Source: Acidisarcina polymorpha (GTDB lineage: Bacteria; Acidobacteriota; Terriglobia; Terriglobales; Acidobacteriaceae). From it: a DNA stretch of 64,000 nucleotides. The stretch lies in NCBI RefSeq assembly GCF_003330725.1, contig NZ_CP030840.1:5332001-5396000 (forward strand), in the 5' to 3' direction. Shown piece after piece: positions 47,392 to 60,700 of the stretch. Below the pieces are notes generated by a model. The model searched no databases, was not told where the DNA came from, and worked only from the letters and a program-made list of their open reading frames with translations. The position numbers and the translations under genes are program-made. Positions within the stretch are counted from its first letter, which is position 1. Every line of letters starts with the position of its first letter.

Positions 47392-47637
47392 ATGGCCAGT
47401 TGGCAGATGCAAGAAGCGAAGACCCGGCTGAGTGAAGTGATTGAGGAAGCTTCAAAGAAGGGGCCGCAGATCATTACCAGGCACGGGGCGGAACGAGCGG
47501 TGATTCTCTCCATGGCGGACTATCGCGCGCTCACCGCCCACAAACCCGACTTAAGAGATTATCTGCTGGGAGGGCCGAAGCTGGATGACTTCGAGATCGA
47601 ACGTGACCTTGATCCGGGCAGAGAGATTGGCCTTTGA
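47392..47637 (+). CDS. Phd/YefM-type antitoxin
   Basis: An 81-residue antitoxin with the WQMQEAKTRLSEVIEEASKKGPQIITRHGAERAVILSMADYRAL pattern (seen in pieces along residues 4-45): N-terminal DNA-binding fold for autorepression, C-terminal tail (DFEIERDLDPGREIGL) that would neutralise the toxin. AGGAGG lies eight bases before ATG 47392, and only two before an ATG at 47386, so the former is preferred. It overlaps the toxin gene by four bases (TTGA). Confidence 0.92.
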   Translation: MASWQMQEAKTRLSEVIEEASKKGPQIITRHGAERAVILSMADYRALTAHKPDLRDYLLGGPKLDDFEIERDLDPGREIGL

Positions 47638-48077
47638 GTGGGCGGCGACTTCAATACCTGCTCGACACGAATGTCCTATCGGAGACGCGCAAGAAACAGG
47701 CCGACGCTCAAGTTATTAGGTTCCTGAGTTCGGCTGACCCGTCGACGCTCTATATAAGCGTTTTGACGCTGGGGGAGTTGAGGAAGGGAGTGGCGCTCAA
47801 GCAACACTCCGATCCGGACGCTGCGAAGCAGATCGGCCACTGGGTGGATGGACTGGAATACAGCTTCGCGGACCGCATCCTGGGCATCGACGCCGCGACG
47901 GCGCGGCTGTGGGGGGAGTTGTCGGCGCAGCGTCCCAGGCCGGTGATCGACACGCTATTGGCGGCAACCGCGTTGTCGCATGAGTTGACCTTCGTGACTC
48001 GCAACATGAGCGATGTGTCGGACATTCAGATGCAGCGACTTGATCCCTGGAAAAGTAACGCGGCCGGTGCAAAATAG
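47634..48077 (+). CDS. PIN-domain toxin (VapC/FitB-like)
   Basis: A 147-residue PIN-domain ribonuclease. The metal-binding acidic residues are in YLLDTNVLSE, SVLTLGELRKGV and PVIDTLLAATALSHELTFVTRN, all present. The start is a TTG within the antitoxin stop, so it is made only after the antitoxin. The likely target is tRNA or another structured RNA. With the Phd-type antitoxin this is a complete type II module, divergent from dnaB. Confidence 0.92.
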   Translation: MSGRRLQYLLDTNVLSETRKKQADAQVIRFLSSADPSTLYISVLTLGELRKGVALKQHSDPDAAKQIGHWVDGLEYSFADRILGIDAATARLWGELSAQRPRPVIDTLLAATALSHELTFVTRNMSDVSDIQMQRLDPWKSNAAGAK

Positions 48078-50902: not shown

Positions 50903-51664
50903 TTAGAACAGCCACAGCAATCCGCCAACGAGCGCCATTCCGGCAGCTAGACTCTGCGAGGCGAAGAAGCTGTTTGCCGGCAGATCGCTGCGCAGGAGAT
51001 TCATGCAGGAGCTGCTTGTTGCATAAAGGAACAACCACGCGCCCATGACCTCGCCGCTGCGAATCTTCCATGTATCGCGCTTCGCAATCAGGGTGAGCAG
51101 CAGCACGAGGATGCAACACTCCACGAACGCCGAGTAGATTTGAACTGGATGCAGCGGCGTACCCAGCGGGGTTCCGTACCAAAGCGAGGCGAGTCGGCTT
51201 TTGTAGGTGATGGCCCAGGGGAGCCGGGTGGGTTTCCCGAAGGCGGAGCCGGCAAGGAATTCTCCGATGCTGGCGATGGCCAAGCCGAGCGCGAAGCCGG
51301 GGGCGAGCGCATCGAGGGTCGACCGCAAGGGCAGGCGGGTAGCGAGCGCGAAGACCAGCATGGCGGTGAGTGCGAGGGCCAATCCGCCGACGACGGCGGA
51401 ATCGGAACGAACGCTGAACACGCCGATCAGCCACAGCGGATGGGCGGTGAAGTCCTTCCAGTTGCTGAAAATCAGGATGAGGCGGGGAGCCAAGAGGGCG
51501 GTCAGGATGCCGGTGATGCCGAGGTCCCAGATTTTTTCGGGATCAAGCTCGAGGCGCCGCGCGGTAATTCTCGCGGCGGAGAGCGCCGCGAGGATGCCGA
51601 TGGCGGCAAAGGCTCCGGCGGTGGGAATGGAGATCGGACCAAACTGGAAGAGGCGGGGATACAC
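50903..51664 (-). CDS. Lgt-like membrane protein lacking the catalytic signature
   Basis: A 253-residue seven-helix protein whose start (LFQFGPISIPTAGAFAAIGIL) and HPVQIYSAFVEC motif match prolipoprotein diacylglyceryl transferase. The residues needed for catalysis are missing. Where Lgt has MSFHGG with the essential histidine, this has DSAVVGG; where Lgt has GRxGNFIN with essential Arg and Asn, this has ASIGEFLA. So it is probably not the working Lgt but a paralogue, perhaps with another lipid role. The start is GTG. It lies between mnmG and the 6S RNA candidate. Confidence 0.75.
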   Translation of the reverse strand: MYPRLFQFGPISIPTAGAFAAIGILAALSAARITARRLELDPEKIWDLGITGILTALLAPRLILIFSNWKDFTAHPLWLIGVFSVRSDSAVVGGLALALTAMLVFALATRLPLRSTLDALAPGFALGLAIASIGEFLAGSAFGKPTRLPWAITYKSRLASLWYGTPLGTPLHPVQIYSAFVECCILVLLLTLIAKRDTWKIRSGEVMGAWLFLYATSSSCMNLLRSDLPANSFFASQSLAAGMALVGGLLWLF

Positions 51665-51690
51665 TCTCGCGATTGTAAATCGGCGAACCG

Positions 51691-51740
51691 AGCAGATCCT
51701 TCAACCGCGCCTGGCTACGCCAGCTTCAATCAGGATGACA
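51691..51740 (-). repeat. Dispersed repeat, copy 3, expanded
   Basis: On the minus strand this starts TGTCATCCTGA and ends GAAGGATCTGCTC, the same flanking words as copies 1 and 2, but with an insert carrying the hairpin CTGGCGTAGCCAG between them. It lies just beyond the 3' end of the 6S RNA candidate. Confidence 0.6.
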
Positions 51741-51770
51741 ATTCCTGTTGAGCTACAGCGCTGTCGAGAA

Positions 51771-51967
51771 CAACAAAACCGACCCACTGGGCCGTAGGTA
51801 AGTACTCTGGTGAACCCGTCCTAAGACGGTGGGGCTCTCCGCGGTTCATTAGGCATTCCGGACTGGCGGACGCGGCACACAGAACCGATTTATCGAGTCG
51901 AGCCCCTGTTCAATGATTAAAGGTTCAACCAGAGTTGACCACCTACCTGCTTTGCAGGCCGGTTTCT
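51771..51967 (-). ncRNA. ssrS: 6S RNA candidate
   Basis: A 197-base long imperfect hairpin. Pairing blocks (plus coordinates): 51960-51965 with 51776-51781; 51941-51946 with 51794-51799; 51928-51935 with 51804-51811; 51922-51926 with 51812-51816; 51900-51906 with 51831-51837; 51882-51887 with 51842-51847. Between the fourth and fifth blocks is an internal bubble whose 5' strand is AT-rich and unpaired (51907-51921) and whose 3' strand holds a small hairpin CCGTC/GACGG. This is the 6S shape: closing stem, open-promoter-mimic bubble, terminal stem. A sigma-70 promoter sits upstream and a U-rich end (GGTTTTGTTGTT) downstream. Nearby zapA also fits; in E. coli the order is zapA-ssrS. RNA polymerase binding is inferred. 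Confidence 0.6.
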
Positions 51968-51974
51968 GAGTTGG

Positions 51975-52003
51975 ATGCTATCGGGAGTGGAGCGGTATTG
52001 CAA
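51975..52003 (-). promoter_or_regulatory. Sigma-70 promoter of the 6S RNA candidate
   Basis: On the minus strand TTGCAA (51998-52003) and TAGCAT (51975-51980) are exactly 17 bases apart; the predicted start is about 7 bases on, at the first base of the folded RNA. Confidence 0.5.
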
Positions 52004-52081
52004 GTCGATAGCAGCCGCGATTTATTCCTATTGCCGGAACCGCTCCACCTTGCCCAATTCGGAACGTTTGAGAAGAACGAC

Positions 52082-53131
52082 TTATGATCCCCCAGCCGGA
52101 TGGACTTGCGCCTGGACCTGGTTCTGTAGAGCCTGGGCGCGAGCCGTCAATTTCTTGAGTTTGTCTTGGATTGCCGAATCGCCAACGTGCTGGTCCTGGA
52201 GTACTCCGTCGGCATCGATGGTAAAGGTGGCAGGGATGGCATGGACGCCGAACAGAGGGGCCACCTGACCCTGGAAGCCGTCGTCCCGGCTCTGAATCCA
52301 GGTCATTTCGTTCTTGGCCACAAAATTCCGCCACTTGGCGTCGTCCCTATCCAGGCTTATGCTCATCACGACCAAGGGTCGACCGGCAAACTTGCGGGCG
52401 ATCTCTTTGAGGTGAGGCAGGGCTTCGCGACAAGGGCCGCACCAGGTCGCCCAGAAGTCGATGAGAACGACCTTGCCCGCGAGATCGTCGAGCGAGACCA
52501 CCCGATTGTCGATCGTCTTGACGGTAAATGCAGGCGCCATCTGAGCACGGACCAACTCGGGACGTTCGCTGTAGCGTTGCGCACGCTTGAAGTCAATCGC
52601 ATTCTGGTCGGCGACCTTGAGGTAGTCGGCAAATCGAGTCTTCGCGGCGGCATCTTGATTGAGCGATGCCATAGTCATGGCATCGCCAAAGATAGCTTGA
52701 TGCAAGGTCGGATCGGCGAGAACCGCGGCTTGGAACTCCTGTCCGCTGCGCGAAAGCAGGTCATCCTTATGCTTCGCTGTCCCCGCCCGGAGGAGTGCAG
52801 TGGCAAAGAGAAAGTGCGCGGTCGCAATATCTTTTTGGTTGTGGACCAGCGTAACGATGTGCTCTCCAGCAGCCAACGCCGCCTTATAGTCGTCGAGTTT
52901 CAAACCAAGGGTAATGATCTGCTGGTCGCAGGCAGCGCAGTTTGCATCCTGCTTCGCGGCTCTCTTAAAAGCATCGAGCGCCCACATATCCTTATGCCGT
53001 TTCAGCAAATCATTCGCCTCAGCGTAGGACTTCTGGGCTTTGGGGTCGGTGGGTCCGGATCGACCTTCGGAAGTTGCAAGACAAAAAGAGAGCAGGCAAA
53101 AGAACAGGCAGCGATTCAAGCGATTCCTCAA
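52082..53131 (-). CDS. TlpA-like thioredoxin-fold protein with helical N-terminal region
   Basis: A 349-residue exported protein: signal peptide (CLFFCLLSFCLATSEG), a helical, TPR-like region at about residues 30-200 with a CAAC pair, and a C-terminal thioredoxin domain with the active site FWATWCGPCREALPHL near residue 238 and cis-proline in HAIPATFTIDADG. It probably reduces or isomerises disulfides in the periplasm. It is followed by the 6S RNA candidate and preceded at 109 bases by zapA, with no sign of a shared transcript. Confidence 0.85.
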   Translation of the reverse strand: MRNRLNRCLFFCLLSFCLATSEGRSGPTDPKAQKSYAEANDLLKRHKDMWALDAFKRAAKQDANCAACDQQIITLGLKLDDYKAALAAGEHIVTLVHNQKDIATAHFLFATALLRAGTAKHKDDLLSRSGQEFQAAVLADPTLHQAIFGDAMTMASLNQDAAAKTRFADYLKVADQNAIDFKRAQRYSERPELVRAQMAPAFTVKTIDNRVVSLDDLAGKVVLIDFWATWCGPCREALPHLKEIARKFAGRPLVVMSISLDRDDAKWRNFVAKNEMTWIQSRDDGFQGQVAPLFGVHAIPATFTIDADGVLQDQHVGDSAIQDKLKKLTARAQALQNQVQAQVHPAGGS

Positions 53132-53239: not shown

Positions 53240-53584
53240 TCAGCCGATGCGGCGCTCTTCGGTTAGCAATGAATCCAGGAGGCCGTTCAGCGAATGAGCG
53301 CGGTTGCGGATATCGCTTTCCGTGGCAGTCAAGCTGCCGTTCAGTTCGCGAAGCTTTTCTTCTGTGCGCGCAAGTTCGTCGGCGATGTTGAGGGCCGCAA
53401 GCACCGCCACCCGCAGCGAATCCACTGTCTTTCCCTGCGAGGCGACCAGCCTCATCTTCGCGTCGACGACCTCTGCAAGATGATGAATGTAGTCGGAGTC
53501 CTGACCGCGAAGCCGATAAGCCTGATCGTAGATGTCGACGGTGACGCTATCGTCGCCGGGGTGAGTGGAGGAGTGATCGGCCAT
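53240..53584 (-). CDS. zapA: Cell division protein ZapA
   Basis: A 114-residue ZapA: N-terminal beta-alpha fold (SVTVDIYDQAYRLRG, YIHHLAEVVDAKMRLVA) and a C-terminal coiled coil (NIADELARTEEKLRELNGSL). It bundles FtsZ filaments at midcell. It lies seven bases after a small coiled-coil gene that would be its partner, and 109 bases before the TlpA-like gene. In many bacteria zapA is near the 6S RNA gene, as appears here. Confidence 0.85.
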   Translation of the reverse strand: MADHSSTHPGDDSVTVDIYDQAYRLRGQDSDYIHHLAEVVDAKMRLVASQGKTVDSLRVAVLAALNIADELARTEEKLRELNGSLTATESDIRNRAHSLNGLLDSLLTEERRIG

Positions 53585-60623: not shown

Positions 60624-60700
60624 GGCCCTGTAGCTCAGGTGGATAGAGCGACGGTTTCCTAAACCGCAGGTCGGAAGTTCGAATCTTCCCAGGGTCACCA
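60624..60700 (+). tRNA. tRNA-Arg (anticodon CCU)
   Basis: A complete cloverleaf of 77 bases: acceptor GGCCCTG/CAGGGTC, discriminator A and encoded CCA; D-arm GCTCAGGTGGATAGAGC; anticodon loop TTCCTAA with CCT at 34-36 and one A-C mismatch at the stem base; T-arm GGAAGTTCGAATCTTCC. It decodes AGG. Confidence 0.95.

Follow-up and report, generated by a model that had tools for sequence, protein, structure and literature searches.

A 6S RNA gene next to lgt, the only copy found in an apparently acidobacterial genome

A well-known small RNA of bacteria, 6S RNA idles RNA polymerase in resting cells by imitating an open promoter. Since 6S brakes transcription globally, placing it correctly is a useful piece of annotation. 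For acidobacterial 6S, no paper titled on the topic was found, by which we make no claim of its absence from print; the survey of 6S dissemination by Wehner et al. (2014) probably includes acidobacteria. In the beta- and gamma-proteobacteria, the gene order zapB-zapA-ssrS has been described, as stated in PMC7641849.

The locus considered here lies on the minus strand of the window, i.e., the whole stretch of 64,000 nucleotides of DNA that was analysed, and its features are collected in Table 1. A first-pass annotation had placed a 6S RNA at 51771-51967. This placement and identity were borne out by the Rfam 6S model RF00013, which matched the minus strand at 51777-51963 over its full length (model positions 1-187 of 187) at 48.1 bits, the cut-off being 46.4 (E 1.5e-6). 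The scan of the whole window gave two Rfam matches above cut-off, namely this one and a tRNA at 60624-60697, and a permissive Rfam scan of 51300-52500 produced no further match above any cut-off. The RNA occupies the 417-base gap between lgt and the thioredoxin-like gene (51665-52081), which had been remarked upon as otherwise unexplained.

Table 1. Coordinates of the 6S RNA locus, its putative signals and its neighbours in the window
Feature	Position	Strand	Remarks
6S RNA (ssrS) gene	51777-51963	minus	Rfam boundaries, RF00013 match
-35 element TTGCAA (CTTGC core)	51998-52003	minus	read from sequence; conserved in the family
-10 element TAGCAT	51975-51980	minus	17 bases from the -35 element; conserved in the family
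Closing stem, 5' arm	51954-51963	minus	RNA positions 1-10; 98.5% of cells paired; 5/10 pairs with changes on both sides
Closing stem, 3' arm	51778-51787	minus	RNA positions 177-186; pairs with the 5' arm
Central bubble, AT-rich 5' strand	51907-51922	minus	unpaired in the fold; the R3 alignment pairs one base
Terminal stem-loop arm	51831-51906	minus	RNA positions 58-133; helices 4-7
Small hairpin, 3' strand of bubble	51816-51829	minus	RNA positions 135-148; helices 8 and 9
T-rich tract at RNA end	51769-51778	minus	follows the closing stem
zapA	53240-53584	minus	PF05164, E 2.5e-17; ends 1.28 kb upstream of 6S
Thioredoxin-like (AhpC-TSA) gene	52082-53131	minus	PF00578, E 4.8e-20; between zapA and 6S
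lgt	50903-51664	minus	PF01790, E 2.3e-32; downstream neighbour of 6S

One point against this assignment is that the RF00013 score exceeds the cut-off by only 1.7 bits. Because this margin is small, a clade model, R3, was built from 32 same-family homologues with the window left out. R3 scored the locus at 158.9 bits (E 3.2e-31), the runner-up in the window reaching 7.3 bits, where six of the 32 rows of R3 had been retrieved by a further clade model, R1, which itself has the window among its 31 rows. A better 6S locus elsewhere in the genome, named beforehand as grounds for refutation, did not appear: RF00013 gave no second locus at E <= 10 in the 7.6 Mb and 5 contigs of the genome, and R1, which scored 90 of its 810 candidates in a search at E <= 1, returned one place only, the 51777 locus. 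As for the organism, the 16S gene of the genome contains GATCCTGGCTCAGAATC, which we take to be the target of Acid31, a probe for Acidobacteria, and the organism was therefore read as a member of the Acidobacteriota. We conclude, with very little doubt, that the locus is an ordinary 6S RNA gene, the sole copy found in its genome, and apparently acidobacterial. The case rests on homology, on a covarying structure, on a conserved promoter, end and neighbourhood, and on no second copy having been found.

The minus-strand fold was calculated at -84.6 kcal/mol (z -5.0), with none of 200 shuffles equally stable, and the plus-strand fold had a z of -2.9 with 1 of 200 shuffles equally stable. The architecture described in the first-pass annotation, comprising a closing stem, a bubble with an AT-rich 5' strand and a small hairpin in its 3' strand, and a terminal stem, is present in this fold and is backed by covariation, and a closing stem, large central bubble and terminal stem of this kind are expected of a 6S RNA. 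For the covariation count, the predicted fold of the window was laid on an alignment of 33 family sequences, consisting of the window, 26 same-family loci obtained via RF00013 and six obtained via R1; G024 (L047, a partial match) and G034 (locus not retrieved) are left out of all counts out of 33. Standard pairs made up 86.1% of cells against 80.7 ± 0.4 in shuffles, 34 of the 62 pairs were changed on both sides (window included) against 17.9 ± 1.8, and the covariation score was 0.236 against 0.145. None of 500 shuffles attained any of the five covariation measures, although this control leaves relatedness in and the structure was derived from one of the 33 sequences. When the partner was slid by 1-3 columns, pairing fell to 32.6-51.9%.

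The agreement is not uniform along the molecule. Helix 6 of the terminal arm had 97% of cells paired and changes on both sides in 5 of 10 pairs, and in helices 8 and 9 (81.5% and 84.2% of cells paired) such changes were seen in 4 of 5 pairs. Helices 2, 3 and 7, the last being the tip, were weaker at 77.9%, 73.4% and 71.2%, and at RNA positions 21-26 five pairs fail to form in 21 to 28 of the 33 sequences, which counts against the structure there. The lower stem is partly specific to the window. The changes on both sides in the closing stem, the terminal arm and the small 3' hairpin are nevertheless convincing despite the limits of the control.

The genes on the minus strand run in the order pheT, a ZapB-like frame (20.1 bits, under the Pfam cut-off of 31.5), zapA, the thioredoxin-like gene, 6S, lgt and mnmG, with 112 bases between 6S and lgt on the same strand. 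The distance to zapA, earlier put at about 1.3 kb on the same strand, proved right, with the thioredoxin-like gene lying between. Within the family, 25 of the 33 loci have zapA upstream of 6S and 31 of 33 have lgt downstream, in both cases on the strand of 6S, each locus being examined to at most 1.5 kb on either side; among the eight loci without zapA, L015 covers only 742 bases upstream. Of the 25 loci that bear zapA, 20 have it at a distance of 46-229 bases from 6S, and the thioredoxin-like gene is therefore probably an insertion in the lineage of the window. Among the 30 best-scoring loci of the phylum, which are not a random draw, zapA likewise precedes 6S in the same orientation at 23. 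A place behind zapA is common for 6S without being strictly defining, and the suggested echo of the proteobacterial zapA-ssrS order is real. As the arrangement is frequent in this phylum and known in proteobacteria, it is wider than the proteobacteria. Elsewhere in the window, a PIN-domain protein, VapC-like by appearance, is encoded on the plus strand at 47634-48077 (PF01850, E 2.6e-12).

The neighbourhood also bears on whether the RNA could be related to 6S but have switched partners, like the actinobacterial Ms1, which binds core polymerase; we regard this as very improbable. The HAD hydrolase gene typical of Ms1 is absent from the locus, whose neighbours are lgt, the thioredoxin-like gene and zapA, and the 16S gene reads as acidobacterial by the Acid31 site. 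What such a reading has in its favour is the general architecture only, Ms1 being structurally related to 6S according to PMC9130861. Against it, the locus matches the 6S family, with no other Rfam family above cut-off there (an argument valid insofar as the library includes Ms1), and it lies in the neighbourhood of zapA, as 6S does in proteobacteria (PMC7641849).

The sequence upstream of the 6S RNA gene is CTTGCAA-N17-TAGCATC, and the RNA is proposed to begin at 51967, 8 bases past the -10 element. The sigma-70 promoter with a spacing of 17 that had been claimed is thus found as TTGCAA-N17-TAGCAT at 52003-51975, weak against the consensus but conserved in the family. A consensus promoter scan reported none here, since it requires 9 of 12 matches and this pair scores 8 of 12, a further point against the assignment. 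In the stretch of about 70 bases that precedes the RNA, TAGCAT occurs at 29 of the 33 family loci, compared with 2.1% of 2,000 base-shuffled stretches. CTTGC and TAGCAT together at the conserved spacing occur at 25 of 33 (window included), compared with 0 of 20,000 shuffled stretches, and the spacing is 17 or 18 at all 30 family loci that match a looser TTG/TAGC pattern; the promoter pattern in these counts was picked after the sequences had been viewed. It is this conservation in relatives that makes the weak promoter credible. That the pattern is simply a common genomic motif was ruled out, as CTTGC-N17-20-TAGCAT is found 6 times in the genome against 19 times for a reversed control. Upstream of the rRNA genes, TTGACA-N17-TATTCT is one of three loose promoter-like matches, from which near-consensus promoters may well operate in this organism. 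The 6S promoter may be kept off consensus for the sake of regulation. A box resembling CCAACTnTTT was also seen upstream of the -35 element at 13 of the 33 family loci (L004, L013, L016, L019, L021, L022, L025-L027, L031 and L041-L043); the locus of the window does not match it, and it is a post-hoc pattern without a control.

At the other end, the U-rich terminus that had been claimed is present as the T-rich tract at 51778-51769 and is conserved: of the 10 bases that start with the last one of the RNA, five or more are T at 30 of the 33 family loci, and a control stretch further down reaches this number at 4 of 33. Two overlapping terminator-like sites were reported at the RNA end, where 0.5 would be expected by chance, and these involve a local hairpin, at 51794-51780 or at 51799-51782, whose formation would compete with that of the closing stem. 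Intrinsic termination at the T-rich tract, via either the closing stem or the local hairpin, is probable, and the transcript probably extends from about 51967 to 51771, or ~195 bases. Read from sequence alone, the locus is a gene that stands by itself, with a promoter and an end of its own, as expected for 6S. The same signals make it exceedingly unlikely that the locus is a decayed or non-functional 6S copy, as the narrow RF00013 result (48.1 bits against 46.4) might have suggested: the promoter and T-rich end are present and conserved in the family, the model built from its relatives scores it at 158.9 bits, and no other 6S was found in the genome.

The distribution of the 6S RNA gene in the family was surveyed in 37 genomes, the window's included. 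RF00013 at E <= 1 matched 32 of these, one of them weakly (G024, E 0.06); R1 added G002, G019 and G027 and firmed up G024, leaving G022 and G036 without. In the three added genomes (loci L044, L045 and L043, respectively) R1 finds 6S at E 3e-33 or better, where the filtered RF00013 search lists none, and the 6S of this group may therefore be under-annotated. In G022, a weak match (27 bases, 17.1 bits) sits at the edge of a contig and is followed by lgt. ZapA was matched in neither G022 nor G036, so that their assemblies may lack the region. In the order, a survey with R2, the phylum 6S model, gave 6S in 53 of 53 genomes of the window's family and in none of the 7 from the sister family, f2; of 121 genomes of the class, 97 matched R2 at E <= 0.001; and in the phylum, 109 of 159 matched RF00013 at E <= 0.001. 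Surveys of more than 40 genomes used stricter filters with few candidates scored, and for this reason their misses are not proof of absence; the phylum survey, for one, missed G034, which the family search found.

The apparent absence from f2 was followed further. Across its 14 genomes, no convincing 6S was found with RF00013, R1 or R2, and none was found behind zapA. The weak matches comprised one genome at E 0.97 with RF00013, one at E 0.98 with R1 and eight at E 0.03-0.98 with R2. With R1 unfiltered on 17 zapA loci, 14 of them from f2 (L052, L054-L065 and L067), the best match was 14.4 bits over 47 bases (E 0.026), and Rfam at a loose threshold gave no convincing 6S at the same 17 loci. A diverged 6S in f2 was considered, and the weak matches were rejected as short or low scoring. 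Eight weak candidates, seven from f2 and one from family f5, showed no mutual similarity at 1e-3 when compared as stretches of 600 bases.

The f2 loci do share a YmdB-like gene (PF13277 in L058), which lies downstream of zapA on the same strand within 1.5 kb at 11 of 14, one of these at 707 bases. Outside the window's family, a YmdB-like gene lies close behind 6S at 9 of 36 6S loci (L003, L009, L048, L049, L069, L077 and L094-L096); zapA is also in front at three of the nine (L003, L009 and L077), and L095 and L096 have a ZapA match on the opposite strand further down. That 6S loci outside the family precede other genes in this way, together with the full-length 6S homology, leaves next to no room for the idea that the RNA is a cis-acting structured intergenic element on lgt, a leader or terminator, as its position, 112 bases ahead of lgt and in the same orientation, could suggest. 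The presence of a YmdB-like gene behind zapA in f2 and behind 6S elsewhere makes the f2 zapA-YmdB arrangement look like the same place without 6S, although the ancestral order is thinly supported.

From these searches it looks as though 6S was lost family-wide in f2. In f5, G296 (5% contamination) matches R2, and at least 16 genomes are without a match, as 16 of the 20 class genomes listed without one belong to this family. L053, from the f5 genome G053, has zapA followed by a YmdB-like gene and gave no 6S with unfiltered R1 or with Rfam at a loose threshold. A second loss, in f5, is possible. We tentatively propose, at somewhat less than even chances, that the promoter form CTTGC/17-18/TAGCATC, held fixed in the window's family, is a regulatory signature, and that 6S was deleted from its place behind zapA in all of f2 and in the greater part of a second family of the class, which would then do without 6S or use an unrecognised RNA in its stead. 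If this were true, the group would provide a natural comparison between close relatives that have 6S and others that lack it. Given the apparent loss in f2, what 6S is needed for could be asked by such a comparison. This apparent loss was unexpected, lies outside the window and is the only part of the results that may interest specialists.

By analogy with the known 6S family, transcription of the locus, accumulation of its product in stationary phase, binding of this RNA to RNA polymerase and release of pRNA would be expected. The conserved housekeeping-type promoter just upstream would start an RNA of ~195 bases, which the stem and T-rich run would end. The AT-rich unpaired bubble between two long stems would then occupy the active site of RNA polymerase carrying the housekeeping sigma factor, and as growth slows the 6S would block the polymerase by imitating an open promoter. 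On the return of nucleotides, the polymerase would use the 5' strand of the bubble as the template for a short pRNA, and the complex would fall apart. The pRNA would probably start opposite about 51919, as the T at this position (RNA position 45) is placed where we take U44 of E. coli, the template for the pRNA start, to lie.

In comparison with known systems, the locus resembles E. coli ssrS and RF00013 in its full-length match, closing stem, bubble, terminal stem and small hairpin in the 3' strand, as well as in having its own promoter and zapA upstream on the same strand. Unlike that of E. coli ssrS, which reportedly undergoes Rho-dependent termination, according to the title of a paper, the end of the present 6S resembles an intrinsic terminator. 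Two further differences from proteobacterial 6S concern the neighbours: a thioredoxin-like gene intervenes between zapA and 6S in the window's genome, and lgt comes next here rather than ygfA or an EVE-domain gene, the proteobacterial neighbours given in PMC7641849. Ms1 of actinobacteria shares the 6S-like architecture but differs in its HAD hydrolase neighbourhood, and it binds core polymerase (all three points as given in PMC9130861).
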